IMG/VR virus record: IMGVR_UViG_3300010885_005715
Location: 1 to 24,452 of that record
DNA length: 24,452 nucleotides
Origin: a virus
Strand: one strand, 5' to 3'
This document shows, one piece after another, positions 4,870-24,452 of the stretch (its first letter is position 1; each line of letters begins with the position of its first letter). Under the pieces are notes generated by a model. It did not search any database. It was given only the letters and a program-made list of their open reading frames with translations, and had not been told where the DNA came from. Made by a program: the position numbers and the translations under genes.

Positions 4870-4870
4870 T

Positions 4871-6298: not shown

Positions 6299-6741
6299 TG
6301 AGCTCAAACTCTAATTTATACAATAAAATAACACTTCCGGCAACAAGCCAACCTGATAATATTGGTCCTAAGATGTATAAGGGATTTAGTAGTATCAACA
6401 CTTCTACTGAGAATTATAATCTGTTTGATTTTGAATTAATCAAACAAGACATACTTAATCACTTTAACACTAGACAGGGAGAGCGCCTAATGAATCCTAT
6501 GTTCGGATGTGTTATATGGGATTTGCTGTTTGAGCCGCTGACGGAAGATATTAAAGGCTTAATATTGGACAATGTCAACACTATCATTAATTATGACCCA
6601 AGAGTTAAAGCAGAAAGTGTGATAGTTACTGGGTATGGTCAGGGAATACAAATACAATGTACTTTAAAATTTGTTCCTTATAACATCCAGCAAAGTTTGC
6701 AATTAAATTTTGATCAAGCTAATGGGCTATTAGTGAATTAA
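6298..6741 (+). CDS. 25: Baseplate wedge subunit gp25-like
   Basis: A 147-residue member of the GPW/gp25 family (T4 gp25 is 132), which sits in the inner wedge core and links the sheath initiation site to gp6 and gp53. The family core is at about 40-100: NLFDFELIKQDILNHFNTRQ, GERLMNPMFGCVIWDLLFEP, LTEDIKGLILDNVNTII and DPRVKAESVIV. The ATG shares its A with the TAA stop of the spike gene (1-nt overlap), so translation is probably coupled. It ends in TAA, 46 bp before gp6, the only real gap in the operon. Confidence 0.92.
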   Translation: MSSNSNLYNKITLPATSQPDNIGPKMYKGFSSINTSTENYNLFDFELIKQDILNHFNTRQGERLMNPMFGCVIWDLLFEPLTEDIKGLILDNVNTIINYDPRVKAESVIVTGYGQGIQIQCTLKFVPYNIQQSLQLNFDQANGLLVN

Positions 6742-6787: not shown

Positions 6788-9700
6788 ATGAGTTCAACAG
6801 ATAGACAAAATAATTTGCTAATATCGGAAGATTGGAAAAAGATCTATCAGAGTTTCCGAAATGCTGATTTTCAAAGTTATGATTTTGAAAATTTACGTAG
6901 AACTATGATTCAGTACTTGCGTACTAATTATCCTGAAGATTTCAACGATTACATTGAGTCTAGCGAATACCTTGCCCTAATTGACCTTATTGCGTTCTTG
7001 GGCCAAAGCATAGCTTTCCGCGTTGATTTAAATGCCCGTGAAAACTTTTTAGAACTTGCAAGTCGTCGTGATAGCGTGTTGCGTCTGGCCCGATTAATCA
7101 GCTATAATGCTAAACGTAATATAGCCGCCAACGGCCTACTTAAAGTTTCCACAGTACAAACAAGCGAAACTGTTATTGACAGTAACGGACGTAATATTGC
7201 CAATCAAGTTATTGCTTGGAATGATCCTAGTAACACCAATTGGTACGATCAATTCATTAAGGTTATGAATGCGGCACTACCTCAGTCACAACAGTTTGGT
7301 AGTCCAGCCGCATCAGACACGATCTATGGAATACCGACGAGTCAATATAGATTTAATGCAACTAATACTAATGTTCCTATTTTTGGATTTACGAGTTCAG
7401 TCGCTGGTCGCTCAATGAACTTTGAAATTACCAGCACTACATTTAAAGGTCAAAACTACATTTATGAAGAAGCGCCGGCAGTAGGTAATAAACCAGCGTG
7501 TGTATATAGAGAAGACGGGCATGGCGCCGGCAGCGCCAGCACTGGATTCTTTTTTAACTTTACTCAAGGTAATTTACAAGCTGGACAGTTTACAGTATCT
7601 CAACCAAGTAGTAACGAAAGTATCGATGTAGCAACTCCAAATATTAACAACAGTGATGTATGGTTATATAAATTAAATCAAGATGGAGTTGACAGTGAAT
7701 TATGGACACCAGTAAGTTCTATAACCGGCAACAATATTATCTATAATAGCTTAAACAAATCAATTAAAAATATCTACACCGTAGTAACTCGTGTAAATGA
7801 TCAAATTAGTTTAGCGTTTAGTGATGGTACATTTGGCAATCTTCCTCTGGGATCGTTTAGAACCTATTATAGAGTAAGTAATGGATTAACTTATGTAATT
7901 AACTCATCTGATATTAGAAATATCAGCATATCGATTCCGTATACATCAGCTTCTGGAAATGCTGAGACAATAACTCTTGCATTAAGTTTAGCATCATCCG
8001 TTAGCAACGCAACTGCAACAGAAGATAATGCATCTGTAAAAACTAATGCTCCGCAAACTTACTATACACAGAATCGTATGATAACAGGCGAGGATTATAA
8101 CATTAGTCCACTGGCCGCTTCACAACAGGTTGCAAAAGTTAAAAGCGTCAATAGAACTAGTAGTGGTATTAGTAGATATTTTGATTTGTCAGATCCTACA
8201 GGAAAGTATAGCAGTACTAATCTATTTGCAGATGACGGCATAATCTATCAAGATTTCTATACCGACTCGGGCACACAATTTAATTATGTAACTAAAACTG
8301 ATATACAGGGTGTTATATATAATCGAATAACATCTTTACTTGCCAGTGCAGATTTGGCTAATTTTTATTATAATAATTTTGTTAATTTTCTAACAGCAAG
8401 TCTTAATATTGCCTGGTACAAAACTACTTCAGATTCAGTGTCATCAACAGGTTATGTAGGTGACGTAGTCGATGCTGGCGCATATAAAGTTGGAACATAC
8501 ACCAACACCGACTTACGATATCTTACAAAAGGAGCCTTAATTAAATTTATAGCACCTGCTGGAAAATATTTCAATACAAATAATGCTAACGCATTAGTTA
8601 CCGGATCAGCAACAGTTCCAGGAGCATCTAGCTATATTTGGGCAGAAGTTGTAAGTGTAAATGGTGACGGTACTGCTAATAACACTGGCGTATTAAGTTC
8701 AGGACTTGGACCTATAACTTTAAATCAACCAATCCCATCGGGCGCAACACTTTCAAAATTAATACCCCAGTTGACAACTTCTATCAATTCAACTGTTATT
8801 ACAACAATGATAGATTTAATTTTTGCAAACAAACCTTTTGGTTTACGGTATAATGCATCGGTTCAAACTTGGCAAATTGTATACGAAGCTAACCTCGACA
8901 CAGTGTCTGCTTTTAGTTTAGGAAGTGAGGGCGATACTACCAACACTCAACAAGATGCTAGTTGGTTATTGTTGTTTACCACCAATAATGTATTCTATAC
9001 TGTTACAACTCGACTATTGAGATATGTGTTTGAAAGTAACAAACAAGTTCGTTTTTACTTTGATAGTACTGACCCTATATACGACAGTTCTACCGGCAAG
9101 GTAATATCTGATCAAGTCAATGTATTAAGTATAAACACCCAACCAGATGCAACCTCGTCTTTTACTAGAGACCAAAAATGGAAAGTGGTAAAGGAGTACG
9201 TAGGTGTCGACGGATACATTGATAATAAAAAAATAGTAATTAGTTTTAGTGAAGACACTGATAACGGTGCTATCCAGGATCCTGAAACATTTTTAAATAT
9301 TGTTGCACCTACAACTAATTCGTTAACAAAATACATTATCCAACAACGATATTTGTTAAATGACGGACAAGAAGACTATCAGTATATTAGTAACACATCG
9401 AATACTGTGGTAATTGCCCCCACTCAGTCGTCAGTACTGACCACATTAACTACATATCCAAACGGACAGTATTTCTATTTTGTTGATACTAGAGTAGTTA
9501 AAAAATTAAATTTATCAACAGCCGCGCTAGTTCCTACACTAGACTATAAAGTATTTGTAGGAAGAGATAATTTAAAATTCCAGTATACGCATAGTGCTGA
9601 TTATAATTCTCGTATAGATCCAAGTGCAAGTAACATAGTCGATGTTTATATCCTAACTAAAAATTATGATACAGCTTATAGACAATGGTTATCTAATAAT

Positions 9701-10252
9701 TCAGTAGGATTACCGTTACCTCCAAGTTCTGATGAATTATATAATTTGTTAGCACCAAGTCTAAACTTAATTAAATCGATAAGCGATGAAATTGTATATC
9801 ACCCTGTATCATACAAGGTATTGTTTGGGCCAACTGCTGAGCGAGAAGTTCAAGCAACTTTTAAAGTAACTAAAAATTCTAGTAGTGTGGTATCGGACAA
9901 TGATATTAAGGCAAGAGTTGTAACTACTCTTAACACATTCTTTGCATTAGATAATTGGGATTTCGGAGACACATTCTATTTTACCGAACTGTCAACATAT
10001 GTAATGAATCAACTAGCACCTGATATTACAAACTTTGTTATAGTACCATTGCAGAGTGATTTGTACTTTGGTAGCTTATTCCAAATATCTTGTCCAAGTA
10101 ATCAAATTTTTACCAACGGAGCAACCGTTGACAACATTGAAATTATTTCAGGCATCACTGGAGCAAATATTAGAACAGTTACTGGTTCTGCATTAACTTC
10201 GGTGACTTCAAATCAAAATGTAACTAGTGCAAATTACGGAGCAACAAATTAA
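6788..10252 (+). CDS. 6: Baseplate wedge subunit gp6-like (baseplate J related), extended
   Basis: The main wedge protein that closes the inner baseplate ring by dimer contacts. The N-terminus fits gp6: FQSYDFENLRRTMIQYLRTN (about 28-47), SEYLALIDLIAFLGQSIAFR, LNARENFLELASRRDSVLRL and ARLISYNAKRNI (to about 113). A baseplate-J-like motif TYYTQNRMITGEDYNISP is at about 424. The conserved C-terminal part begins near 1000 with DEIVYHPVSYKVLFGPTAER and includes NTFFALDNWDFGDTFYFTEL. At 1,154 residues it is much longer than T4 gp6 (660); the extra length is mostly beta-rich Ser/Thr/Asn sequence in the middle. The ATG at 6788 is the first after the gp25 stop in this frame with the conserved N-terminus intact. 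The stop overlaps the next ATG by one base. Confidence 0.9.
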   Translation: MSSTDRQNNLLISEDWKKIYQSFRNADFQSYDFENLRRTMIQYLRTNYPEDFNDYIESSEYLALIDLIAFLGQSIAFRVDLNARENFLELASRRDSVLRLARLISYNAKRNIAANGLLKVSTVQTSETVIDSNGRNIANQVIAWNDPSNTNWYDQFIKVMNAALPQSQQFGSPAASDTIYGIPTSQYRFNATNTNVPIFGFTSSVAGRSMNFEITSTTFKGQNYIYEEAPAVGNKPACVYREDGHGAGSASTGFFFNFTQGNLQAGQFTVSQPSSNESIDVATPNINNSDVWLYKLNQDGVDSELWTPVSSITGNNIIYNSLNKSIKNIYTVVTRVNDQISLAFSDGTFGNLPLGSFRTYYRVSNGLTYVINSSDIRNISISIPYTSASGNAETITLALSLASSVSNATATEDNASVKTNAPQTYYTQNRMITGEDYNISPLAASQQVAKVKSVNRTSSGISRYFDLSDPTGKYSSTNLFADDGIIYQDFYTDSGTQFNYVTKTDIQGVIYNRITSLLASADLANFYYNNFVNFLTASLNIAWYKTTSDSVSSTGYVGDVVDAGAYKVGTYTNTDLRYLTKGALIKFIAPAGKYFNTNNANALVTGSATVPGASSYIWAEVVSVNGDGTANNTGVLSSGLGPITLNQPIPSGATLSKLIPQLTTSINSTVITTMIDLIFANKPFGLRYNASVQTWQIVYEANLDTVSAFSLGSEGDTTNTQQDASWLLLFTTNNVFYTVTTRLLRYVFESNKQVRFYFDSTDPIYDSSTGKVISDQVNVLSINTQPDATSSFTRDQKWKVVKEYVGVDGYIDNKKIVISFSEDTDNGAIQDPETFLNIVAPTTNSLTKYIIQQRYLLNDGQEDYQYISNTSNTVVIAPTQSSVLTTLTTYPNGQYFYFVDTRVVKKLNLSTAALVPTLDYKVFVGRDNLKFQYTHSADYNSRIDPSASNIVDVYILTKNYDTAYRQWLSNNSVGLPLPPSSDELYNLLAPSLNLIKSISDEIVYHPVSYKVLFGPTAEREVQATFKVTKNSSSVVSDNDIKARVVTTLNTFFALDNWDFGDTFYFTELSTYVMNQLAPDITNFVIVPLQSDLYFGSLFQISCPSNQIFTNGATVDNIEIISGITGANIRTVTGSALTSVTSNQNVTSANYGATN

Positions 10253-13200
10253 TGGCCATCAGTAATAATCCAAATGGTACGAACGCAGTTGCCGTAAATT
10301 TTTTACCAAATTTTTATAAGACTGACTCAAATAAAAAATTCCTACAGGCCACAGTTGATCAAATAGTACAACCAGGCGCTGTAAAAAAGATTAACGGATT
10401 CATTGGCAGAAAAACAGCCAAGGCAACAGTTGGAGACGATGTTTATATCGAAGCTCCAACAGAACAACGACAAGATTATCAACTTGAGCCTAGTTTTACT
10501 GTAAAAGATACATTGGGAAATCCTACATTTTTTAAAGACTATCAAGATTATATTAATCAAATAAATGTCTTTGGCGGTAATACTGCAAATCATGCAAGAC
10601 TAAATGCACAAGAATTCTATAGTTGGGATCCGCATATCAACTGGGATAAATTTGTTAACTTTCAAAGTTACTATTGGCTTCCATACGGTCCTGATACAAT
10701 TACAATCTTTGGTCAACAAAAAGCAGTAACCAGCACATATACGGTTCAGCTAGAAACTCAAGGTTCAGATTATCAATATTTGTTTACTCCTGATGGGCTA
10801 ACCCCTAACCCAGTGCTGACCTTATATAGAGGCCAGACATATATATTTGACATCACTAGTCCCGGCAATCCGTTTAGTATTAAGATTAACAGAAACATAG
10901 GTACATTTGATAGATATACCTCTGGTGTAGTTGGCAACACGGGTGTTGTAGATGGAAAAATTACATTTGAGGTTCCCCTAAATGCTCCTAATATTTTGTA
11001 TTATCAAAGTGAAACAGATAGGAACTTAGGCGGTGTTATTAAGATTCTTGACATCACAGAAGACTCGTATATTGATGTTGCCGCTGATTTATTAGGTAAG
11101 AAAACATATAAATTATCAGATGGAACTCCGTTAAGTAACGGAATGAAAATATCGTTTGGCGGAAATGTATCACCAGCAGAATATGAGACCGGAGAATATT
11201 ATGTTGAGGGTGTCGGTTCTTCTATTAAATTGATTAATAAAAATATCTTAGAAATCGTTACTACATACACTGCAACTGAAGCAGTTTATTTTGACAGCAT
11301 TCCTTTTGATAGTCAACCATTCGGTGATTCTTCTAATTACGCATCAACAAAAGATTATATAACAATAAATCGTGCTAGTAGAGATCATAATCCCTGGAGT
11401 AGATACAATCGATGGTTCCATAAAGATACTATTGAAGCTGTTGCGGCATACTTAGGCAACACGATTACATTAGATCAAACCAGCCGAGCAGTCCGTCCAA
11501 TTATAGAATTTAACGCAGATTTAAAATTATTTAATTTTGGAACGCTAGCAGTTAGCGATGTAGATGTTATCGATACATTTACTAAAGATGCGTTTTCGAC
11601 CATTGAGGGTAGTAGAGGATATAATGTTGACGGAGTCCCGCTATCACAAGGGCAACTGGTATTGTTCACGGCCGATACTGATCGATTGGTAAAAAATAAT
11701 ATATACCGAGTAACATTTACAAATATTCTAGGCTACAGACAGATCCATTTAGAACCGGTAACACAGCCAGTACTAAACAATGTAGTATTAATTAGACAGG
11801 GTAAGAAGAATCAAGGGCAGATGTATTGGTATGACGGTATTACTTGGAAATTAGCTCAACAAAAAACAAATACCAATCAAGCTCCGTTATTTGACATAGT
11901 CGATAGTAATAAAATCTCATACGGCAATACTAGCACATATCCTGGCACAGATTTTATCGGAACTTCAATCTTTAGTTATAAGATAGCTTCAACTGGATTG
12001 ACTGATATAAATCTTGGATTTCCACTAACTTACAAAAATATTAATAACATCGGTGATATTGTTTTTAATTTTACATTAGCCACTGACACATTTCAATACA
12101 AGTTGTCTACAACAACTGCTTTAAAAACAGTATTAATTAAAGTAGGTTACTTAGTATCACAAGATTATGCTGGCAATCCAGTTTATCAGAACGGCTGGCA
12201 ACGATCTATAGTTTCAACTGTGCAGGCAGGAGTTCGAGTTTATAAAAATAGTAACCTAGTAAATAATTTTCCTATCGATATATTTGATAACATTGATGAC
12301 TTGTCAGACTTAAATGTAAAAGTATACATCAATGGTATACGTTTAGATGAATCATATTGGTCAGTGGTCAACACGTCAATATACAAGCAACTTAAATTAA
12401 CAACTAGTATTGCAACTACTGATGTATTAACTATCAGAACTTTTGCAAAACAGCCGATTAATAGCAATGGCTATTATGAAATTCCTATCAACTTACAAAA
12501 TAATCCAATGAATGATGAGATAGGCGATTTCACACTCGGCGAAGTGTCTGATCACGTTGCTTCTATCGTTGATAATATACCCGAGTCTATAGAGGTTGGT
12601 GAAGAGTTCGCCAACACACAGACTATTGGTAATCAAACGTTTGATCCGGATCATGAAAACATTCGCGACTTGGGAAATATTACACCGTATGGTACTAAAT
12701 TTGTCCAGCACAGCGGCCCTGCAAGTTTATCTATCTATCATATTACTTCTGAAACTAATAATATTGTTCGAGCGATCGAAAAAAATCGTGAAGATTACAG
12801 CAACTTTAAGAAAAACTTCATCAACATTGCAACTAATCTAGGTGTTGATTCGAATCCTGTAGACCAAGTTGATATGATTTTAAATCGTATTAACAAAGAT
12901 AAACCAAAAACATTCCCATATTATTTTAGTGATATGGTTCCGTACGGTTCATTTGTACAAACTGTATTAACTGTTGTTGATTATAGAATAAAATCATATC
13001 CTCTAACTAATGTGTTTAGTTTAGACAAACTATCAAACCAAGCAGTGGGCGTATATCTTAACGGATTTGAGACCGGCACTCAATTGTTATATGGTAGAGA
13101 TTATACATTTGATCAACAAGGGTTCGTAGTGTTAACCGATGCAGTCCCATTACAAAACAATAATACTATCACTATCAGAGAATATGACGATACTGACGGA

Positions 13201-16200
13201 TCATTCATACCAGAAACTCCGAGTAAACTTGGAATCTGGCCAAAGTATGAGCCTAGGATCTATTTAGATACTAGCCTTGTTACTCCTGTTAGGATGATAC
13301 AAGGGCATGATGGTAGCCAAGTAGCGGCATATAATGATTATCGAGATGCTATTTTATTAGAATTAGAAAAGCGTATCTATAATAATATTAAAGTTGCATA
13401 CAACACTAGCATATATGATATTGCTGATACGATTCCTAGTTATAATAGAACTAATGCATATAGTATTAATGAATTTAATAATGTATTAGCTCCAAGTTTT
13501 TATAAGTGGGCAACGTTGGTTGATAAAGATTTTACCAAACCGTTAAACTACGATCTTAATAATAGTTTTACCTACAACTATGCAGGACATTCTGCTCCTA
13601 ACGGTACCACAGTGCCTGGCTATTGGAGAGGAGTATATCGATGGTTGTTAGATACAGATCGTCCACATATTTGTCCTTGGGAGATGTTGGGCTTTACTGA
13701 ACAACCTACTTGGTGGACTGAGGTATACGGATCAGCACCATATAGTAGAGACAACCGAGTTATGTGGCAAGATATTGCAGACGGTGTAGTTCGAGCACCG
13801 GGTGTTCCTGCAATCACATTAACGAAATATGTTAAGCCATTTTTAATGAATCATATTCCGGTAGACGAAAACGGCAATCTACTCAGCCCATTAGCTTCCG
13901 GACTTGCTAGAGGAACTGTTACTCAGCGGACTTCTAACGATTTTGTATTCGGTGATGTCGGCCCGGTAGAGGCCGCCTGGAGAAGAAGCAGCCACTTTCC
14001 ATTTAGTACTATATTAGCTTCGATGATTCTCACCCCGGCGAATACGTTTGGAGTCTTATTAGATAGATCACGGATTATAAGAAATTTAGCAGGCCAGTTA
14101 GTTTATTCAGATACTAATTTAAGAATTAAACCTTCAAATATTAAATTACCTAACATTACTTCTAGCAACAATCGGATCCAGACTGCAGGTGTTATTAATT
14201 ATCTTACTAATTACATCTTAAGTGATAATTTAAAATCGTATACAGACTATCAGTACGATTTAATAAATCTAGCACCACAAATTAGTTATCGTGTTGGCGG
14301 ATTTACTAGCAAACAAAAATTTAATTTGTTGTTAGATTCACGAACATATGCGTCGTCAAATGTAGTGTTTATACCGCAAGATGATTATACTATCATTCTT
14401 AACAGTTCAAGTCCCGTTAAGAAAATTGTATACAGCGGAGTTATTATTACTAAGGTAACATCCGGCTATGAAGTTAAGGGTTATAGCCAAACACAACCGT
14501 TTTTCAAATACTATCAGTATACTCAATCTGGTGTGACAATCAATGTTGGCGGAATTTCTGAGAAATTTAATACCTGGACAGTGTTAAGCGAATATGCGGC
14601 AGGCACTATAGTTAAACTAGCTCAACAGTATTATCGAGTGTTAGTTAACCATACAACTGCTACCACCTTTGAACCTAAATATTATCAGTCTATTAACAAA
14701 CTTCCGATTATTGGCGGCCGCGATGCTACGTTTAGAAAACTATGGGACAGAACCAAAGATCTAATAGTGCCTTATGGTACAACATTTACTAGTGTCCAAG
14801 CAGTTGTTGACTTTTTATTAGGTTACGGTGAATACTTAAAAGATCAAGGGTTTGTATTTGATGAATTTAATAAAAATCTTGGAGCTGTAACTAACTGGGA
14901 AACTAGTGCTAAAGAATTTATGTTCTGGACTACTCAAAATTGGAGTTCGGGTGCAGACAAGTGGACCGATTGGCGACCAAATGTTGTTATTCCGTTTAAT
15001 TCAATTATAAAATACAACGGTGACTATTATCGCTCTGTAAGAAATGTAGAAGCTAGTTCATCATTTGATGCAACGAGTTTTATTAAACTAGATAATTTAA
15101 GCACGATAGGTAGTGGAGTTATTAGCCTTAGCCCAAGTGCTGATAAGATCACGTTTAATACTACACTTGCCGTTGTAGACGATATCGGTAATCCATTTAA
15201 CGGATATGAAATCTTCAAAGTAGATGGCACCCCATTAGAAAAAGCATATATTAATTCTTTTAGAAGTGACAACGCAGTTAGTTATAGTTCTACGACCAAT
15301 GACGGTATATTTGGTGCGAGTTTTTATCTAGTACAAAAAGAACAAGTACTGCTACTAAACAATTCAACTATGTTTAACGACACGATCTATAGTCCTGCAA
15401 GTGGATATAGACAAGAGAGAATTACAGTAGCCGGTTACGTGAGTGTTGGTTGGACAGGCGGATTCGATGCGCCAGGCTTTATTTTCGATGAAGCAGTAAT
15501 AACAGAATGGCAACCTTGGAAAGATTATAATATCGGAGAGGTTGTAAAATTTGGTCAATTTTATTTACAAGCATCCCCAACGGGTAATTTTGTTCCAGGT
15601 GCAGAAATACTGGATCAAACTCAATGGTTAAAATTAACCAACAAACCCTCTCCTAAACTTATCCCTAACTGGACTTATAAGGCCGCACAATTTACTGACT
15701 TTTATAGTTTAGATAGTGATAATTTTGATGCCACTCAACAACAGGCGGCACAACATTTAATCGGCTATCAAAAGCGTTCATATCTTAATAACATTATTAA
15801 AGATGATGTGAGTGAGTTTAAATTCTATCAAGGTATGATTCGAGAAAAAGGTACACAGAACAGTTTAAATAAATTGTTTGATGTGTTAAGTGCCGACGGT
15901 CAAGAAAGTCTAACCTTTAAAGAAGAATGGGCTATCCGACTAGGACAATATGGTGCAAGTGGCGCATTTGAAAATATTGAATTCGTTTTAGACGAATCAC
16001 AATTTAAAATTAACCCACAGGGATTTTACCTAGTTAGCCAGCCAAACCCTAACGCACTTGATTATATTATTAGACAAACACCAAACAATGTTTATTTAAA
16101 ACCACTAGGATATACAAGCATACCATGGCCAGTGTTATCAAATTATCAACCTTATCTTCGTAGTGCAGGGTTTGTTCGAGCATCAGAAGTATTTGTTTCA

Positions 16201-19200
16201 TTAAAAACCATTGCAGATATCGTAAATTATGATGTAACAACCTTTAATAACGGATCATATGTATCTTGTGCGTTTGAAGGAACTAGCTGGAATGTATATA
16301 GATTTACTGACATTGATTTTGAAGTTACCGATATAACCTATGATAGCAACGTATTAACTATTACCCTTGTTGATTTTGTCGGACTACCGGTCGGAACATG
16401 GATCGGCATATCACAAACTACAAATATTAATGGTTTCTATAAAATAACCAGCGTAACTTTAAATTCGTTTACAGTAAGTGCAACACCATCTAATTGGGAA
16501 ACATTTACCGAACAATCAAAAGTTATCATTTATGCCTTGTTGAGTCAGCGAACTACATCTATTGACAACATTGATGATATCATTCCTCGTAAACTTACCG
16601 CTGGTGAACGCCTGTGGACTGACGATAGCGGTGACGGCACTTGGGCAACTTGGTCTTATGATCCTGTATACTCACAAGTAAGATTCTTTAATTCTACTCC
16701 GGCTACTGGATTAAACTATGGTAGGTCTGTAGCTATTAATGCCTTAGGCAATATTCTCGGAGCATCAACATCTAACGGTGATATTGTAACTTGGGACAAG
16801 GCAAGTGTTACTACACCGTGGATCCAGCGCCAACTAGTGACTAAGCCATATGTTACAAATCAAATAACATTAACTAATCTGTATGCAACCGTGTTAGCAT
16901 TTAGCAATGACGGTACCTGGCTAGCTACCGGTAGCCCGGAAGTTGGGTATGCATATACAAAACACAGAGGTATATACAGTAATGTAACTGCTTATCTAAT
17001 TGGAGATATAGTTTCTGTAGCTGGCGCTGGCTCTGCGGTTTATCTTTATAGAGCATTAGCAAATACACAAAATAATGCTCCTGCAACCGGTCAGAAATCA
17101 AACACCTACTGGGAAAGCATACCTTATATTCCTATCGACGATACTGGGACAACTAGTGGATTGGTAGCACAGGGTGTTATACATCTTTATAAGAAAGATA
17201 CAGATAACATTTATTCTTTAGTGGATTCTTTTGTTAGCCCAACCCCAACTGCTAACGAGCTGTTTGGTTCAAGTTTAAGATTCTTTACCTCAACTGCAAC
17301 TGGATCTATAGATCAGCTTATAGTCGGAGCATCCGGTTCTAGCAGAGTGTATAATTTTGTGCTTGGCACAGTAAACGAAGCATCAACAGCGTTCAACCCT
17401 GTTGGCACTATTGGCGGAATAATTGCTGTAACTTCTACAGCTGGAATTTTACCAGGAATGATAGTCAGCGGCACCGGATTCACTGGCGGACAAACTGTAA
17501 CAACTGTAATAAGTTCAACCAAGTTAGAGCTAACAGGTAGTCCTAATAGTACACCGTCGGGCGTATTAACATTTAGTGCTACCGGTTGGTTCTTTAAGAA
17601 TTATCATCTATCAACACTATACAATATTCCAATCGGAAGAAATTTTGGAGCTAGCGTAGTAGTTAGTGGAGATCATATATCTGCATACGCTCTGTCAGCT
17701 GTTGACGGAATAAATTTAGGTACGGTTGTAGTAGTGTATAAAAATACACCGCAAACAATAACCGGTGCTGGTGTTGCATTTGGTACTTCTGTAGCACTTT
17801 CAAATGATGGAACTTATCTAGTAATATCTGATACATTGACCAGCGGCACGAGTGTTAACCAAGGCGCAGTTTATGTTTATAAACGTATCAGTAATTCTTA
17901 TACATTATATCAAACTATTGTAAATCATAAACCGGAAAATTCTGGTTTCTTTGGTAGTAAAGTTGCTTTCATGTCGGACAAGACGCTAGTAGTTTATAGC
18001 TCAAGCGGTGATACTCTTAATGAGATGACATTTGATCAAACTCAAACAACCTTTGATAAAAAGAGTACTACGTTTATTACTAGACAAATTGACAGCGGCA
18101 AAGTAGATATCTACGACAACTATTCAACCAAGTGGGTGTTTAGTGAATCACTAACAACTACTAATACATTAAATGACGGATATGGCACTGGTTTTGCAGT
18201 AGGGTTAAATCACATTATTGTCGGAGCACCTACCACAATCGACCAAGCATTATCATCTGGTGTAGTGTATGATTATTATAAATTACCTAATACGTTTACC
18301 TGGACAAAAACACATACTGAAATTGTAAAACCAGATGTTGCAAAAATTAAAAAAGCCTTCTTATACAATAGAACAACGGGTGAACTAGTTAAGTATTTAG
18401 ATGTCATCGATCCCCTACAAGGAAAGATAGCAGGACCCGCAGCCGAAGAAATCACATTTAGTTCTTTTTATGACCCGGCCGAATACACTATAGGCAATGA
18501 TAGTGTAATCGTTAATGCAGATAACTCATGGACTACTAAACAAGTAGGAAAATTGTGGTGGGATCTAAGAACTACAAAATTTATTGATCCGTATGATGAA
18601 GAAGTTGTTTATAGAACCAGCAACTGGAACACACTAGCAACCGGTGCAACTGTTGATATCTATGAATGGGTAGCAAGCGTATATAAACCAGCCGACTGGG
18701 ATAACCTAGCAGATACCGAACCCGGTCTAGCTAAAAATATCAGCGGAACTAGTTTGTACGGAAATACAGCATACAGCGTTAGTCAGACCTATGATACTAT
18801 AAGTCAATCATATAGAAGCATTTATTATTTCTGGGTTAAAAATAAAACCTTAGTTCCCAACATCGCAGGCAGAAATATTTCGGCAGCAGATGTTGCTTCG
18901 CTGATTGCAAATCCAAGAGGACAGGGTTATGAATACTTGTCATTAACTGGAATTAATTCGTTCAACCTTACAAATGTTAAGTCAAAATTAATAGCAGACA
19001 ATATTGTGCTATCAGTTGAATATTGGACTACTGACAAGACTGATCGTAATGTACACAGTCATTGGAAAATTATCAGTGACGAAGAAACAACCGTTATACC
19101 TACAACTATAGAACAAAAATGGTTTGATAGTTTATGTGGTAGAGATTCTAATGGATTACCGGTTCCTGATTTAAAACAACCGATAAAATTAAGATACGGT

Positions 19201-22200
19201 ATTGAAAACAGACCACGTCAAAGTATGTTTGTTAATCGCTTTGAGGCACTTAAACAGTTTATAGAACAGGTTAATATTACTCTAGCTAACAATCAAATAG
19301 TACAATCGAAGAATCTAACTAATTTAGAAAAATACGATGCCTATCCAGATTATGTAACACTAGTTGATGGAACAAAAATTCTTCCTAGCGGCCTTTACGA
19401 TACCGCTATCGATACTGATGCTGAATTATCATATGTTGGAGTCGGGGCATTTAAACGACCCGACCTTACACCTATAATCGTTGATGGAAAGATTACGGGA
19501 ATAACAATTAATTCTGCCGGAATTGGATATCTGTATCCTCCATTTATTAGTATAGTTGGTAGCGGTACAGGCGCAGTTGTTCGTGCAACTATCAACACAC
19601 TGGGACAAATAACTGGCGCAACTATTTCTTCCGCAGGAGAAGGATATGACACAAATACAGTAGCAGTTGTTAGAGATTATTCTGTATTGGTCTATAGCGA
19701 TTCGCAATCAAACAATATGTGGGCAATTTATTCTTATGATCCTATTGGAAAAGTATGGTCTAGAATTAAATCTAAGACTTACGACGTAAGAGATTATTGG
19801 GAGTATACTGATTGGTATGCAACTGGATACAATCAATTCTCAGCCGCTGACTACGGAGTTGATACGTTTGACCAATTAAATTATGTCAATCCGTTAATCG
19901 GACAATTAGTATTAGTTCGTACTAGCTCAACAAACGGCTGGCAGTTACTATACAGATACGCAATATCTGCTAGTGTTGACTGGACTCAAAGCTACCGTGT
20001 TGTTGGTGTACAAAACGGCACCATACAATTTAAATCAAGTTTTTATCAGTTCTTTGATACAAGTATTGGTTACGATGATTCGACCTTTGACGGCGCAGTG
20101 TTTGACGGTGAAGCAGTAAACGAATTAAGATTTGTATTAACTGCATTAAAGAATGATATTCTAACAGACGACCTTAAACAAAAATATATAGATTTATTTT
20201 TCACTAGCGTACGATATGCATTAAGTGAACAAGTATATATTGATTGGATTTTTAAAACAAGTTTTGTCAAGGCCCAACACAACATTGGAGAGTTAAGACA
20301 GCCAGTTACCTATCAAATTGACAATCTATCAAATTTCCAAGAATATGTAAGCGAAGTAAAACCATATCGTACAAAGATTCGTGAGTACGTTAGTGCGTAT
20401 TCTAAAATAGATAATTCTAGAACAATGGTAAGTGACTTTGATCTTCCAACAGTATACGATAATAATAAAATAGTCAATGTTAATACATGGATAACCAACG
20501 GAAAAATTCAAGCCGATAATGCCGCAATTCAAACATATCCGTGGAAAAATTGGTTAGACAATGTAGGATTTATTGTAACTGAACTGCGATTAGTTAACGG
20601 CGGCTCCGGCTATATAACAGAACCGGTAGTGAAGATTACTAGCGATTCGGGATCCGGAGCAACAGCAAGAGCATTTTTTGCTAACGGAAAAATCAATAGA
20701 ATAGTACTGTTAACTAACGGCAGTAAATATCTGTCAGCACCGACAGTTACTCTAGATGGTGGACTATCAACTACAGGAACTGCCGCAAGAGTTGTAGCAG
20801 TCATTGGTAACGGTGTTGAAGCCGATATGCCGCACGGTGTTGTTCGATCGTCTCTAGTAAAAATTAAATTTGACAGACTAACTCAGTCATATTATATCAC
20901 TCAACTGCAACAAACTGAAACATTTACAGGTAGTGGTAGTAAATTACAATTTAATTTAACTTGGGCTCCTGATATCAGAATTGGTAATAGTACTGTTACC
21001 ATAACATCGCCTGGTCAGACTAGTGAAATTTTAGTACTAAGAGATTTATACACACTAGCAGTTAAGAAATCAACTACGAAAGGCTACACTAGTTATTCTG
21101 GAACGATCACCTTTGCTACAGCGCCTGCTAATTTGTCTACTATCAAAGTGACATACATTAAAGATTGGGATTTATTAAACGCCGCAGATAGAACGCAATT
21201 CTATTACGATCCAATAACTGGACAAATAGGCAACGATTTATCACAGCTAATGTCCGGTATCGACTACGGCGGAGTAACCATTAATGGATTAGGCTTTGAC
21301 GTTGCCGCAGGTTGGGGAGCGTTACCTTATTACACTGACAAGTGGGATACATTTGATGCTACATATAGTGATTATATTGTAACTGTGGCAGCAGGTGTGC
21401 GTTCGTTTACCTTACCGTACACTCCATCAGCTAGTACAATTTTAAATGTCTACCATGTGCGCACAAACACATTAACATATACAAGTAATGGGTTGGATGT
21501 AAAGTATTCTTATACTGTATCAAATAGAACTCCTACGATTACTGCATCAACAACACAAACTGCGCTAGCACCCGTGACATCGTCGGGCACAGCAGGAACA
21601 AGATTGTTGAGAGTAAATTCTACAACTAATATTAATGTCGGCGATACTGTTACTTGTTCATCAGTTGCAGCCTTTTCGTTGAATACAACAGTTACCGCTA
21701 TTAACAGTAGTACAAATACAGTCACGTTGAGTCAGATCCTGTATTTAAATGTACCAACAAGTTCAAGCATTATCTTTACTAGAACACTGGCACAGCCGAC
21801 TGATTTTTCAATATTCTCTAATGGTAATGTAACACTAGCAACACCATTGTTAAATGGCATTCAGTTGAACATCATAACAGAATCTGAGCCAATAAGACTT
21901 GATGATCCTAACTACGGAACAGTGAATCAAACTAACACTAATGCAATTATGTCATCAATAACTGCAAGTGGTTCTACAGCAACATTTACAATACCAAATA
22001 CATTTACTGTGTTAGCTGGCGATAAATTTATCTGGAGACAGAGTACTAGTGATGGTTCTATTAAACCTCAAGATACTGATTATGATACTGCATTGACTGG
22101 TGGTAATCTTGCCTATAGTACTGCTACTGGATTATCAGCAGACGATATACTAGTTGACGGTGATGGTCTAGTTACACCAACTACTAGCTCTGCTCCTGAA

Positions 22201-24452
22201 GAAGTAGTTCCGGGACAAGTAGTAGATGCCGTTGCTATCAAAGTATTTGATCAACCAAGTGTGGGCAGTGCAAACATCAAGGTTGATAATTATCTTGCTA
22301 ACGGATCTAATAATTCTTTTGCAATTACACAAACACCGTCAAGTCCTCGAGCAGTAGTTGTTAAGGTCGGTTCAACTATTAAACAATATACTACGGATTA
22401 TACGGTTGACTACAAAAATAAATTAGTAAACTTTACATCAGCACCGGCAGCAAACAGCACAGTGTCGATATTCAGTCTCGGGTTCAGTGGAGATAATATT
22501 TTAGACATTGACTATTTTATTGCCAACGGAGCTACTTTAGAATTTATTACTAAAGCACCGTGGTTAGACTCAGTGACCAGCTTGATATACCTTAATGGTG
22601 TTGCAATTAGTCCAAAGTTATTTAAAACAGATAACACCTATGTAAGTGCAAACAGGATTGGAATTCAATTTGGTACACCACCAGCAGTTGGATCTGTTAT
22701 TAACTATATTATTGTTAGTGGAAATCAACAGACATTTGCTATTACTAAAACTGAACTAGTTCCAACTACTGGGGCTACAACATATGCACTGCAATATCCT
22801 ATAGGTGATGCATTACCTCTCGAGACTAATGTTATTGTACGAGTTAATCAATCAATCTTGACTGGACCTAACAACAGTTATTTTACCATAGCAAATGGCA
22901 AGTTAGATTATACAATCGACCCTACAGTGTTCTTACCTTACAGTGTTTCAATCGGAGATATACGAATACTAGCCAATGGAAAATTATTAACTATTGGTTC
23001 AGATTATATTATTAATCTTAGTGGAATAACAATTTCTATCAATCAAACTGTTTATGACAAGTATCTTGGTAAGCAGTTGATTGTCAGTATCGTAACAGAC
23101 CAACAGTACACTTATAATCCAGTGGCGGGCACAATTACCTTTAAAGAAACATACGATAATACAAATGTCGTCGAAGTGATTAGCTCATATAAACATGATG
23201 TTTTAGATATTCAACGAACTGACATTAACGTTTCATCGAGCTTGGCGCTTACACCGGATACTGTAACTTATTTCTATTATAAATCGCTTACCGGTGGTAT
23301 TCTATCATTGGATCGTTCAATTATAAATGACAGTTATGTATGGGTTGTTAAAAATGGAACACTGTTAACACCTGCGATCGACTACAAATTAAACGATGAT
23401 CGAGTATCTATTACACTAGCGTCTGCTATTAGTTTACCTGACAAAATTACATTAATCACTTATGGTAGTAACGTGTTAACCACTGGAATTGCATATATGC
23501 AATTCAAAGATATGTTAAATCGTGTACACTTTAAACGACTAAATCGTAATAAAGAAACCTACTTGGTAACTGCTTTACACTATAACGATGCTACAATTAC
23601 TGTTGCGGACGCAAGTAATTTTGACTTACCAAATACAGCTAACAACAAACCTGGTATTATTGAAATACGAGGCGAGCGTATTGAGTTCTTTGCTGTTAAC
23701 GGTAACGTATTAAGTAAATTGCGTAGAGGCACACTGGGAACTGGAACACCGCCAGTACACAACACTGGCTCTTGGGTACAAGAGATCGGTGCTAGTGAAA
23801 CAATACCATATGTAGAAAATATCACCACTGAACAAATTATCAGTGACGGCACAAACACAGTTAATTTAAATATTATAACACCGACTAAAGCCTCAACGAC
23901 TTGGTCATACAGCACAGGTTATGTTTCAAGTATACCTGCAGGATATGGGCAAAGCAATGATATAGATGTATTTGTCGGTGGGTATGATACTAGTTCTATG
24001 TGGGCACCAAATACTGCTTATGCTGTGGGGATCATAGTCACTATCGGTAGTTATACATATCAGTGTAAGATCACTCACACTAGTAGTGCAGTCTTTACTA
24101 CTGATACTGCTAAGTGGACTTTCTTTATCGGTAATATTAGATTGAAGAAAAAACCCTACATGGTGCATAACATTAATCAAGCACCAGATAGTCCAGAGGG
24201 CGACATACAATTAGATGCTGATTTTGCAGTTAACGGCTCATTAAAACAAGTGAGATTAACTAACAGACTAGCTATAGGTACTCAAGTTACTGTGGTAAAA
24301 CGCCAGGGCATTGCCTGGGATAGTACAGTAAATATACTAAACGATTCGACTGACGTTGCTAAGTTCTTAAAATCTGTTCCTGGAACATGGTACAAGGACT
24401 CTAAACAAATAAGTACAGTTACTACTGCTACTACTTTTGACAGCAATACATC
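10252..24452 (+). CDS. Giant modular virion structural protein, baseplate/adsorption associated (partial, at least 4,733 residues)
   Basis: One plus-strand frame stays open from the ATG at 10252 to the window end; I checked every codon and found no stop. GGAG lies 10 nt before the ATG, which overlaps the gp6 stop by one base. The N-terminus VNFLPNFYKTDSNKKFLQAT resembles large structural proteins next to gp6 in marine T4-like phages. Order of parts by residue: cupredoxin-like domain 184-269; SRDHNPWSRYNRWFHKD near 374; NIRDLGNITPYGTKFVQHSG near 804; TPSKLGIWPKYEPRI near 990; CBM5/12-like modules near 1445, 1565 and 1755; FYQGMIREKGTQNSLNKLF near 1859; propeller 2151-2689; QVGKLWWDLRTTKFI near 2764; GIENRPRQSMFVNRFEAL near 2984; paired repeats near 3077 and 3444; SEVKPYRTKIREYVS near 3367; LMSGIDYGGVTINGLGFD near 3667; C-terminal beta-modules 4004-4405; GIIEIRGERIEFF near 4469. 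It probably takes the gp7 wedge place or forms an external adsorption structure; that role is inferred. Confidence 0.85.
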   Translation, partial: MAISNNPNGTNAVAVNFLPNFYKTDSNKKFLQATVDQIVQPGAVKKINGFIGRKTAKATVGDDVYIEAPTEQRQDYQLEPSFTVKDTLGNPTFFKDYQDYINQINVFGGNTANHARLNAQEFYSWDPHINWDKFVNFQSYYWLPYGPDTITIFGQQKAVTSTYTVQLETQGSDYQYLFTPDGLTPNPVLTLYRGQTYIFDITSPGNPFSIKINRNIGTFDRYTSGVVGNTGVVDGKITFEVPLNAPNILYYQSETDRNLGGVIKILDITEDSYIDVAADLLGKKTYKLSDGTPLSNGMKISFGGNVSPAEYETGEYYVEGVGSSIKLINKNILEIVTTYTATEAVYFDSIPFDSQPFGDSSNYASTKDYITINRASRDHNPWSRYNRWFHKDTIEAVAAYLGNTITLDQTSRAVRPIIEFNADLKLFNFGTLAVSDVDVIDTFTKDAFSTIEGSRGYNVDGVPLSQGQLVLFTADTDRLVKNNIYRVTFTNILGYRQIHLEPVTQPVLNNVVLIRQGKKNQGQMYWYDGITWKLAQQKTNTNQAPLFDIVDSNKISYGNTSTYPGTDFIGTSIFSYKIASTGLTDINLGFPLTYKNINNIGDIVFNFTLATDTFQYKLSTTTALKTVLIKVGYLVSQDYAGNPVYQNGWQRSIVSTVQAGVRVYKNSNLVNNFPIDIFDNIDDLSDLNVKVYINGIRLDESYWSVVNTSIYKQLKLTTSIATTDVLTIRTFAKQPINSNGYYEIPINLQNNPMNDEIGDFTLGEVSDHVASIVDNIPESIEVGEEFANTQTIGNQTFDPDHENIRDLGNITPYGTKFVQHSGPASLSIYHITSETNNIVRAIEKNREDYSNFKKNFINIATNLGVDSNPVDQVDMILNRINKDKPKTFPYYFSDMVPYGSFVQTVLTVVDYRIKSYPLTNVFSLDKLSNQAVGVYLNGFETGTQLLYGRDYTFDQQGFVVLTDAVPLQNNNTITIREYDDTDGSFIPETPSKLGIWPKYEPRIYLDTSLVTPVRMIQGHDGSQVAAYNDYRDAILLELEKRIYNNIKVAYNTSIYDIADTIPSYNRTNAYSINEFNNVLAPSFYKWATLVDKDFTKPLNYDLNNSFTYNYAGHSAPNGTTVPGYWRGVYRWLLDTDRPHICPWEMLGFTEQPTWWTEVYGSAPYSRDNRVMWQDIADGVVRAPGVPAITLTKYVKPFLMNHIPVDENGNLLSPLASGLARGTVTQRTSNDFVFGDVGPVEAAWRRSSHFPFSTILASMILTPANTFGVLLDRSRIIRNLAGQLVYSDTNLRIKPSNIKLPNITSSNNRIQTAGVINYLTNYILSDNLKSYTDYQYDLINLAPQISYRVGGFTSKQKFNLLLDSRTYASSNVVFIPQDDYTIILNSSSPVKKIVYSGVIITKVTSGYEVKGYSQTQPFFKYYQYTQSGVTINVGGISEKFNTWTVLSEYAAGTIVKLAQQYYRVLVNHTTATTFEPKYYQSINKLPIIGGRDATFRKLWDRTKDLIVPYGTTFTSVQAVVDFLLGYGEYLKDQGFVFDEFNKNLGAVTNWETSAKEFMFWTTQNWSSGADKWTDWRPNVVIPFNSIIKYNGDYYRSVRNVEASSSFDATSFIKLDNLSTIGSGVISLSPSADKITFNTTLAVVDDIGNPFNGYEIFKVDGTPLEKAYINSFRSDNAVSYSSTTNDGIFGASFYLVQKEQVLLLNNSTMFNDTIYSPASGYRQERITVAGYVSVGWTGGFDAPGFIFDEAVITEWQPWKDYNIGEVVKFGQFYLQASPTGNFVPGAEILDQTQWLKLTNKPSPKLIPNWTYKAAQFTDFYSLDSDNFDATQQQAAQHLIGYQKRSYLNNIIKDDVSEFKFYQGMIREKGTQNSLNKLFDVLSADGQESLTFKEEWAIRLGQYGASGAFENIEFVLDESQFKINPQGFYLVSQPNPNALDYIIRQTPNNVYLKPLGYTSIPWPVLSNYQPYLRSAGFVRASEVFVSLKTIADIVNYDVTTFNNGSYVSCAFEGTSWNVYRFTDIDFEVTDITYDSNVLTITLVDFVGLPVGTWIGISQTTNINGFYKITSVTLNSFTVSATPSNWETFTEQSKVIIYALLSQRTTSIDNIDDIIPRKLTAGERLWTDDSGDGTWATWSYDPVYSQVRFFNSTPATGLNYGRSVAINALGNILGASTSNGDIVTWDKASVTTPWIQRQLVTKPYVTNQITLTNLYATVLAFSNDGTWLATGSPEVGYAYTKHRGIYSNVTAYLIGDIVSVAGAGSAVYLYRALANTQNNAPATGQKSNTYWESIPYIPIDDTGTTSGLVAQGVIHLYKKDTDNIYSLVDSFVSPTPTANELFGSSLRFFTSTATGSIDQLIVGASGSSRVYNFVLGTVNEASTAFNPVGTIGGIIAVTSTAGILPGMIVSGTGFTGGQTVTTVISSTKLELTGSPNSTPSGVLTFSATGWFFKNYHLSTLYNIPIGRNFGASVVVSGDHISAYALSAVDGINLGTVVVVYKNTPQTITGAGVAFGTSVALSNDGTYLVISDTLTSGTSVNQGAVYVYKRISNSYTLYQTIVNHKPENSGFFGSKVAFMSDKTLVVYSSSGDTLNEMTFDQTQTTFDKKSTTFITRQIDSGKVDIYDNYSTKWVFSESLTTTNTLNDGYGTGFAVGLNHIIVGAPTTIDQALSSGVVYDYYKLPNTFTWTKTHTEIVKPDVAKIKKAFLYNRTTGELVKYLDVIDPLQGKIAGPAAEEITFSSFYDPAEYTIGNDSVIVNADNSWTTKQVGKLWWDLRTTKFIDPYDEEVVYRTSNWNTLATGATVDIYEWVASVYKPADWDNLADTEPGLAKNISGTSLYGNTAYSVSQTYDTISQSYRSIYYFWVKNKTLVPNIAGRNISAADVASLIANPRGQGYEYLSLTGINSFNLTNVKSKLIADNIVLSVEYWTTDKTDRNVHSHWKIISDEETTVIPTTIEQKWFDSLCGRDSNGLPVPDLKQPIKLRYGIENRPRQSMFVNRFEALKQFIEQVNITLANNQIVQSKNLTNLEKYDAYPDYVTLVDGTKILPSGLYDTAIDTDAELSYVGVGAFKRPDLTPIIVDGKITGITINSAGIGYLYPPFISIVGSGTGAVVRATINTLGQITGATISSAGEGYDTNTVAVVRDYSVLVYSDSQSNNMWAIYSYDPIGKVWSRIKSKTYDVRDYWEYTDWYATGYNQFSAADYGVDTFDQLNYVNPLIGQLVLVRTSSTNGWQLLYRYAISASVDWTQSYRVVGVQNGTIQFKSSFYQFFDTSIGYDDSTFDGAVFDGEAVNELRFVLTALKNDILTDDLKQKYIDLFFTSVRYALSEQVYIDWIFKTSFVKAQHNIGELRQPVTYQIDNLSNFQEYVSEVKPYRTKIREYVSAYSKIDNSRTMVSDFDLPTVYDNNKIVNVNTWITNGKIQADNAAIQTYPWKNWLDNVGFIVTELRLVNGGSGYITEPVVKITSDSGSGATARAFFANGKINRIVLLTNGSKYLSAPTVTLDGGLSTTGTAARVVAVIGNGVEADMPHGVVRSSLVKIKFDRLTQSYYITQLQQTETFTGSGSKLQFNLTWAPDIRIGNSTVTITSPGQTSEILVLRDLYTLAVKKSTTKGYTSYSGTITFATAPANLSTIKVTYIKDWDLLNAADRTQFYYDPITGQIGNDLSQLMSGIDYGGVTINGLGFDVAAGWGALPYYTDKWDTFDATYSDYIVTVAAGVRSFTLPYTPSASTILNVYHVRTNTLTYTSNGLDVKYSYTVSNRTPTITASTTQTALAPVTSSGTAGTRLLRVNSTTNINVGDTVTCSSVAAFSLNTTVTAINSSTNTVTLSQILYLNVPTSSSIIFTRTLAQPTDFSIFSNGNVTLATPLLNGIQLNIITESEPIRLDDPNYGTVNQTNTNAIMSSITASGSTATFTIPNTFTVLAGDKFIWRQSTSDGSIKPQDTDYDTALTGGNLAYSTATGLSADDILVDGDGLVTPTTSSAPEEVVPGQVVDAVAIKVFDQPSVGSANIKVDNYLANGSNNSFAITQTPSSPRAVVVKVGSTIKQYTTDYTVDYKNKLVNFTSAPAANSTVSIFSLGFSGDNILDIDYFIANGATLEFITKAPWLDSVTSLIYLNGVAISPKLFKTDNTYVSANRIGIQFGTPPAVGSVINYIIVSGNQQTFAITKTELVPTTGATTYALQYPIGDALPLETNVIVRVNQSILTGPNNSYFTIANGKLDYTIDPTVFLPYSVSIGDIRILANGKLLTIGSDYIINLSGITISINQTVYDKYLGKQLIVSIVTDQQYTYNPVAGTITFKETYDNTNVVEVISSYKHDVLDIQRTDINVSSSLALTPDTVTYFYYKSLTGGILSLDRSIINDSYVWVVKNGTLLTPAIDYKLNDDRVSITLASAISLPDKITLITYGSNVLTTGIAYMQFKDMLNRVHFKRLNRNKETYLVTALHYNDATITVADASNFDLPNTANNKPGIIEIRGERIEFFAVNGNVLSKLRRGTLGTGTPPVHNTGSWVQEIGASETIPYVENITTEQIISDGTNTVNLNIITPTKASTTWSYSTGYVSSIPAGYGQSNDIDVFVGGYDTSSMWAPNTAYAVGIIVTIGSYTYQCKITHTSSAVFTTDTAKWTFFIGNIRLKKKPYMVHNINQAPDSPEGDIQLDADFAVNGSLKQVRLTNRLAIGTQVTVVKRQGIAWDSTVNILNDSTDVAKFLKSVPGTWYKDSKQISTVTTATTFDSNT
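10801..11058 (+). other. Cupredoxin-like domain of the giant protein, metal ligands absent
   Basis: Residues 184-269 run LTLYRGQTYIFDITSPGNPF, then a turn, DGKITFEVPLNAPNILYYQS, and ETDRNLGGVIKILD. The layout matches the cupredoxin-like beta domain common in phage and bacterial surface proteins (RGxTYxFxV...HPF...ITFxVPxxAPxxLYYQCxxHxxMGGxIxI). The usual His, Cys, His and Met positions are Asn (NPF), Ser (YYQS), Arg and Leu here, so a bound copper is unlikely. It is probably a structural or binding sandwich. Confidence 0.6.
14574..14697 (+). other. CBM5/12-like module 1 of the giant protein
   Basis: WTVLSEYAAGTIVKLAQQYY then RVLVNHTTATTFEPKYYQSI follows the short-module pattern W-x(4)-Y-x2-G-x2-V...-Y-x-x-x-x...F-x-P-x-Y/W. 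Such modules bind chitin or other glycans in enzymes and recur in phage tail proteins. The call rests on aromatic spacing only. Confidence 0.45.
14953..15102 (+). other. CBM5/12-like module 2 of the giant protein
   Basis: KWTDWRPNVVIPFNSIIKYN, GDYYRSVRNVEASSSFDATS and FIKLDN show the same W/aromatic, hydrophobic strand, Y-Y-R-S and F-D-x-x-x-F order as module 1, which it follows closely. The central W-x(4)-Y-x2-G is less exact than in the other copies. Confidence 0.4.
15508..15642 (+). other. CBM5/12-like module 3 of the giant protein
   Basis: EWQPWKDYNIGEVVKFGQFY, LQASPTGNFVPGAEILDQTQ and WLKL fit the pattern well, with W-x2-Y-x2-G-x-V-V, an F-Y pair on the next strand, F-x-P and a closing W. 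It lies just before the conserved segment FYQGMIREKGTQNSLNKLF. Confidence 0.5.
16978..17127 (+). other. CBM5/12-like module 4, inserted in propeller blade 2
   Basis: YSNVTAYLIGDIVSVAGAGS, AVYLYRALANTQNNAPATGQ and KSNTYWESIP is the clearest of the five copies: x-x-T-A-Y-x-x-G-D-x-V, Y-L-Y-R-A-L strand, N-x-x-P loop, and a closing Y-W. The blade resumes at GVIHLYKKD, so this is an insertion into a loop of the propeller. Confidence 0.55.
17380..17580 (+). other. Small beta domain inserted in propeller blade 3
   Basis: IIAVTSTAGILPGMIVSGTG, FTGGQTVTTVISSTKLELTG and SPNSTPSGVLTFSAT have the recurrent phage-protein pattern of a strand, G-M-x-V-S-G-T-G, G-G-x-T-V, a strand ending in T, and P-S-G-x-L-T-F. 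A related form appears again at about 21595-21780 (TRLLRVNSTTNINVGDTVTC). Function unknown. Confidence 0.5.
19483..19668 (+). repeat. Tandem G-x-GY repeat pair 1 in the giant protein
   Basis: Two copies in tandem: DGKITGITINSAGIGYLYPP with FISIVGSGTGAVVRATI, then LGQITGATISSAGEGYDTNT with VAVV. This is the common I-T-x-x-x-I-x-x-x-G-x-G-Y-x-x-x-P-x-I-x-I-x-G-x-G-T-G-A-x-x-x-A repeat of phage and environmental surface proteins. It is protein-level repetition, with no obvious long DNA repeat. Confidence 0.65.
20575..20820 (+). repeat. Tandem G-x-GY repeat pair 2 in the giant protein
   Basis: VTELRLVNGGSGYITEPVVK with ITSDSGSGATARAFF, then NGKINRIVLLTNGSKYLSAP with TVTLDGGLSTTGTAARVVAV. This is the same repeat type as at 19483-19668, about 370 residues further on, and here the second copy has lost the central G-Y (SKY). 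Confidence 0.6.
21166..21360 (+). other. Conserved LMSGIDYGG module of the giant protein
   Basis: DWDLLNAADRTQFYYDPITG, NDLSQLMSGIDYGGVTINGL and GFDVAAGWGALPYYTDKWDT form a segment I recognise from large structural proteins of T4-like marine phages (AADRxxxYYxPxxGxxGxDLxQLMxGxDYxGVxVxG). Its function is unknown to me. It is followed by the beta-module string of the C-terminal part. Confidence 0.5.
22261..23475 (+). repeat. String of related beta-modules in the C-terminal part of the giant protein
   Basis: At least four successive units share a plan of strand, x-V-x-V-N/K-G, about ten residues, D-Y-x-x-x, strand, x-F-x-x-A/P-P, and a closing I-x-I: AVVVKVGSTIKQYTTDYTVD with LVNFTSAPAANSTVSIFSLG; SLIYLNGVAISPKLFKTDNT with IGIQFGTPPAVGSVINYIIV; SIGDIRILANGKLLTIGSDY with ITISINQTVYDKYL; VWVVKNGTLLTPAIDYKLND with VSITLASAISLPDKITLITY. 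Similar single units occur near 12319 (VKVYINGIRLDESYW) and 13045 (AVGVYLNGFETGTQLLYGRD). They probably stack as a beta-rich shaft or fibre. Confidence 0.5.
23506..23820 (+). other. Conserved LRRGTLGTG module of the giant protein
   Basis: DMLNRVHFKRLNRNKETYLV, ALHYNDATITVADASNFDLP, PGIIEIRGERIEFFAVNGNV and LSKLRRGTLGTGTPPVHNTG follow each other without gaps. The G-x-I-x-I-x-G-E-R-I-E-(F/Y)-(F/Y) and L-x-R-x-x-R-G-T-x-G-T pattern recurs in large phage baseplate and fibre proteins. Role unknown. Confidence 0.5.
23998..24132 (+). other. CBM5/12-like module 5 of the giant protein
   Basis: MWAPNTAYAVGIIVTIGSYT, YQCKITHTSSAVFTTDTAKW and TFFIGN fit the module well: W-x-x-x-T-x-Y-x-x-G-x-x-V, Y-x-C-x-x-x-H-T-S, F-x-T-D, and a closing K-W. 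It is the last recognisable module before the window end. Confidence 0.55.

Follow-up and report, generated by a model that had tools for sequence, protein, structure and literature searches.

A giant PHROG_10938 virion-protein gene adjoining gp6 in a phage baseplate operon, a likely member of the gp7/gpI group

Results

Baseplate operon and reading frame

The window, meaning the whole stretch of DNA analysed here, is a complete linear IMG/VR record of 24,452 bases that carries a run of baseplate genes on its plus strand. These encode, in order, a virion structural protein (1253-2281; PHROG_12050, E 5e-40), a gp53-type baseplate wedge subunit (2238-2585; PHROG_7145, E 7e-26, and Phage_gp53), a further virion structural protein of the same operon (2587-4869; PHROG_11190, E 1.5e-24), a gp5-like hub protein with an OB domain (4862-6298; PHROG_13211, E 3e-45, with Phage_base_V and DUF2345), a gp25-type wedge subunit (6298-6741; PHROG_261, E 1.7e-20), a gp6-type wedge subunit of 1,154 residues (6788-10252; PHROG_10646, E 1.5e-297, and PHROG_219, E 2e-17) and a giant baseplate protein whose gene lacks its 3' end (10252-24452). 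Genes for a gp55-type sigma factor and an SbcD-like protein lie upstream of the giant on the opposite strand. A first-pass annotation had placed the giant beside gp6 in a phage baseplate operon, and the gp53-, gp5-, gp25- and gp6-type genes upstream bear this out. The hub protein, in which a domain search found no lysozyme domain, has 478 residues, like that of PA5oct; its counterparts in RaK2-like relatives have 880-900 residues and include a lysozyme. Scans of the window for tandem repeats, tRNAs and Rfam families returned none. The PHROGs category "head and packaging" given to PHROG_10938, PHROG_12050 and PHROG_11190 appears to be wrong, as these are baseplate-cluster families.

The giant gene begins with an ATG at 10252 that overlaps the stop codon of gp6 (TAATG) and is preceded by GGAG. 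From there, 4,733 codons are free of stops up to 24450, with a partial codon at 24451-24452, which confirms the initial description of a frame of more than 14.2 kb and at least 4,733 residues that is still open at the window end. About 336 stops would be expected by chance in this frame at the base composition of the window (log10 P of zero stops, -152), and the other two forward frames over the gene contain 355 and 582. Since the window is the whole record, the lack of a stop reflects the end of the contig. In the closest relative among the matches listed (contig L005/L122), which encodes a protein of 4,808 residues, the frame terminates 12 codons past the position of the window end, so that the predicted length of the giant is about 4,745 residues. 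Its visible portion has a mass of 523 kDa.

The giant and this relative share 88.5% amino acid identity over 4,714 aligned codons. In the comparison with L122, overall dS was 0.93 and dN was 0.065, dN/dS stayed within 0.04-0.12 in all 300-codon blocks along the gene, and all indels were whole codons; the giant is under purifying selection along its whole length. Three IMG/VR scans recovered at least hundreds of related records, and in all 31 that were examined the gene ran without interruption as one frame through 4,441-5,611 codons. The selection throughout, the whole-codon indels and the unbroken frames in relatives together exclude the in-frame misassembly that the first-pass annotation had named as an alternative to a single gene.

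Family membership and gene order

The giant is a member of the PHROG_10938 family of giant virion structural proteins, to which it matched by profile in five stretches (E 0; 1,082 bits). Matches to later parts of the protein, past the N-terminal region, occur in at least 85 annotated phage records, and full-length members in our comparison set range from 3,138 to 5,610 residues. Members of 3,138-4,555 residues follow gp25-gp6 in PA5oct, PBECO4, GAP32, Phosso and other jumbo phages. The whole baseplate cluster has the same order in PA5oct (giant of 3,857 residues), PBECO4 (3,333), XaC1 (3,332), GAP32 (3,341 as annotated) and Muenster (3,322 as annotated), the gp25-gp6-giant order is kept in Phosso (4,555), and the gp6-giant order is kept in Atu_ph07 (4,449). 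In Vibrio phage 2.275 a giant of 3,771 residues follows a 1,287-residue gene in the gp6 position. Salicola phage SCTP-2 also has a family member (3,807 residues); the product of the gene immediately before it (L087, 8630-17920) has 3,096 residues, so that a giant seems to occupy the gp6 slot there too.

The isolate proteins PA5oct gp355, Atu_ph07 gp180, PBECO4 gp538, phAPEC6 gp245, CBB_236 and GAP32_230 all lie directly after gp6, as the window giant does, and their conserved regions are collinear with it. They measure 3.3-4.6 thousand residues, compared with about 4,745 for the window protein, whose insert after residue 1961 and C-terminal modules are particular to it. Proteins predicted from freshwater uncultured Caudovirales phages (UniProt A0A6J5L0K2 and others), which carry no described function, are 64% identical to the giant in the modelled region. 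Among the matches listed, the longest contigs with relatives measure about 350-600 kb, and the source of the window is therefore most likely a jumbo myophage.

Homologues of the giant have been detected by virion mass spectrometry. The phAPEC6 protein gp245 (381.88 kDa) was represented by 17 unique peptides with 7.6% coverage (PMC7247149); its gene comes after gp244, a baseplate wedge gene, and spans the tblastn match to the giant. CBB_236, whose gene was checked as well, was represented by 21 peptides with 7.72% coverage (PMC5259590), and the sequence record of PA5oct gp355 carries an ESI-MS/MS flag. Coverage of 7-8% would be compatible with a chain that is cut or cleaved later. By analogy with these three phages, the assignment of the giant as a virion protein is supported.

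Conserved regions and modules

Blocks of the giant that are retained in isolates span roughly residues 1-150, 351-900, 1001-1450, 1501-1550, 1651-1750 and 1801-1950 in the first half and 2701-3000 and 3200-3400 in the second, and residues 1951-2700 and those from 3700 onwards vary. The first-pass annotation had described a mixture of conserved segments and glycan-binding-like modules, and that picture holds, with one CBM_5_12 module, two chitin-binding stretches at profile level and FG-GAP repeats, all encoded on the plus strand. The CBM_5_12 module occupies residues 4584-4625 (24001-24126), where Pfam matched residues 4584-4617 at 32.1 bits against a cut-off of 26.2. A CBM5/12-like module at residues 1442-1478 (14575-14685), for which Pfam found nothing in the single sequence, corresponds to positions 437-475 of the family profile A8, and these matched PDB chitin-binding domains in two stretches (best chain, E 4e-5). 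A second such module at residues 1753-1795 (15508-15636) corresponds to A8 positions 688-731, which matched the chitin-binding domains of deacetylases in the PDB; it is missing from the aligned jumbo-phage isolates, which show zero occupancy at residues 1751-1800.

Residues 1961-2695 (16132-18336) form a lineage-specific insert of 735 residues, the length of which varies from 127 to 1,524 residues among lineages. FG-GAP_2 matched residues 2506-2543 at 30.3 bits (cut-off 23) when the insert was searched in isolation and fell below the cut-off in the whole-protein scan; 17 of 26 relatives have an FG-GAP match in the insert. These repeats suggest that about residues 2154-2678 are probably a beta-propeller. 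Near the N-terminus, where tblastn matched cyanophage records at query residues 164-274, lies a module at residues 189-265 (10816-11046) that is common to cyanophage gp9-type connectors and fibres and has no Pfam match. By eye it appears cupredoxin-like, with the usual Cys/His/Met metal ligands replaced (YYQSETDRNLGG).

The second conserved region, residues 2690-3440 (18319-20571), was delimited by conservation and modelled by AlphaFold with a pLDDT of 85.0; Foldseek found nothing in the PDB below E 0.07 for this model. The model of residues 1001-1990 had a mean pLDDT of 83.5, lower over the KGT-containing core described below, and among solved structures it matched chitin-binding domains only. 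Strong Foldseek matches among viral models were family members, one of them 64% identical. Profile searches of the PDB with the family likewise returned chitin-binding domains and nothing else.

A candidate gp7/gpI core

The position of the giant gene beside gp6 matches that of T4 gp7 and of P2 gpI, which follows gpJ, the counterpart of gp6. A candidate gp7/gpI core lies at residues 1800-1961 (15649-16134, plus strand), where FYQGMIREKGTQNSLNKLFDVL at residues 1858-1879 is followed by EEWA. Of 88 windows along the giant, this one scored best with the profiles of both P2 gpI and T4/cyanophage gp7 (P 0.001 and 0.014, respectively, with KGT in register, the motif having first been spotted by eye); the next-best windows reached 0.033 and 0.027. 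Column shuffles of the core attained the real score in 0 of 200 cases for gpI and 4 of 200 for gp7, and hhalign probabilities were about 1 to 22%. The gpI profile was built from eight diverse phage gpI sequences, because the P2 gpI relatives in IMG/VR were near-identical and unusable. T4 gp7 and P2 gpI have a KGT-containing helix, followed in gpI by an EW motif, and the candidate core of the giant resembles it weakly at profile level, which is suggestive of a gp7-like core. T4 gp7 (1,032 residues) and P2 gpI (176 residues) are far shorter than the giant, and neither has a significant sequence or fold match to it.

Other searches for gp7 were negative. The second gp7 element, a W..HP segment, was not found: hhalign gave no alignment of the giant to the cyanophage element, and to the T4 element only P 0.07 in the wrong register. 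The helices at about residues 3290-3380 had been a candidate for the T4 element and were ruled out by hhalign. Direct homology with T4 gp7 was rejected, as the phmmer matches were scattered with E values of 0.04 or worse. Searches of whole records with gp7-core and Tail_P2_I profiles gave no match in the giant, and a jumbo-core profile lent no support either; the silence of Tail_P2_I carries little weight because it misses T4 gp7 too. Foldseek comparison of residues 1001-1990 and 2690-3440 with the PDB retrieved no gp7, these being single-chain models of a protein whose core may fold only in the wedge.

Giant proteins in the gp7 slot of cyanophages

Proteins of similar or greater size occur at the same position in marine cyanophages. 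In P-HM2, a protein of 4,454 residues already annotated as gp7 follows gp25-gp6 and precedes gp8. In Synechococcus phage ACG-2014b, gp087 (L143, 7573-26841), labelled "virion structural protein", has 6,422 residues and occupies the slot after gp25-gp6. Both contain the KGT and W..HP elements in the order of T4 gp7 (P 4e-8 and 3e-4 against T4 gp7 by hhalign), with KGT at residue 701 and W..HP near residue 3484 in gp087. The distance between these elements is about 130 residues in T4, ~2,770 in ACG-2014b and ~2,400 in P-HM2. Like the window giant, these proteins lie directly after gp25-gp6, and GxGY-type repeats are present in them and in the window family. They differ from it in having recognisable T4 gp7 elements, and their likeness to it is confined to repeat modules.

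The wedge-subunit annotation in ACG-2014b sits on a neighbouring gene of 1,544 residues rather than on gp087. That "baseplate wedge subunit" was rejected as a model of gp7 because it is the 6,422-residue neighbour that carries the gp7 elements; only its GxGY repeats resemble the giant.

Giant gp7-slot proteins thus occur in two large phage groups, and size alone is no sign of an exotic protein. The initial description of the window protein as exceptional in size does not stand, given the at least 85 annotated family records and the proteins of equal or greater size that fill this slot elsewhere; its size is genuine and not unique.

Discussion

We propose, with a probability of roughly 0.6, that the giant is a virion protein of a jumbo-myophage baseplate that occupies the slot of T4 gp7 and P2 gpI and combines a wedge core with an outer baseplate. 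The helices of the core (residues 1800-1961) would be packed together with gp6 and gp25, building the baseplate wedge in the manner of T4 gp7. The remaining roughly 4,500 residues, comprising conserved regions without a recognised fold, chitin-binding-type modules, FG-GAP repeats and beta-rich modules, would form a large outer baseplate around the wedge, which may assume jobs done in T4 by separate proteins and may touch host-surface glycans. The external adsorption structure suggested in the first-pass annotation would be a putative role of the giant. The gp7-type core and the contacts with gp6, gp25 and glycans are parts of this proposal that we infer, and the membership of the giant in the gp7/gpI group is likely.

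Alternatively, the giant could be unrelated to gp7 and belong to the periphery of the baseplate or to a fibre platform, as an outer adhesin encoded next to gp6 by chance, with the wedge formed by gp6, gp25, gp53 and a small gp7 that has escaped recognition. The numerous adhesion-type modules, the missing second gp7 element and the lack of a significant gp7 match in sequence or fold are all consistent with such a protein. However, its slot is identical to that of gp7 in T4 and cyanophages, the adjacency of gp6 and the giant is retained across divergent jumbo phages, and the gpI and gp7 profiles peak at the same residues; on balance we consider an unrelated adhesin unlikely, if deserving of attention. 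Cleavage of a polyprotein into several baseplate components after translation would suit both the size of the giant and the low peptide coverage of its homologues, but no processing was described in the publications consulted, and we regard this as distinctly improbable. The chance that the gene is an assembly artefact or an in-frame fusion of two genes is negligible: only the run of the frame to the contig end speaks for it, against the same unbroken frame in 31 related records, the selection and whole-codon indels seen in the comparison with L122, and the presence of the gene in annotated isolate genomes.

Returning to a giant that fills the gp7 slot, a broader interpretation is offered tentatively, at slightly less than even odds: gp7/gpI may have been inflated to 3,000-6,400 residues in jumbo phages and cyanophages, mainly by adhesion-type modules inserted just after the KGT core, such that one polypeptide would join wedge assembly with host-contacting functions that are spread over several baseplate proteins in T4. 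The baseplate assignment itself is correct, and the giant adds to an already known family. PHROGs currently lists PHROG_10938 among "head and packaging" virion proteins and gives it no function, even though its members are among the largest proteins of these phages. Its placement in the gp7 slot and the candidate gpI-type core provide it with a testable role, and make it a candidate gp7 for these jumbo phages, in which none is annotated.

Two minor observations concern the relatives. A run of FD motifs closes the giants of L122 (16400-16472) and L124 (TFDNDTSFDGTSITFDQG), and FD motifs also occur inside the window giant near residue 2594 (TFDQTQTTFDKKSTTF). In L124, the giant and a fibre-like gene are followed downstream by an open frame (19006-19998) that resembles by eye an S53 sedolisin-type peptidase.
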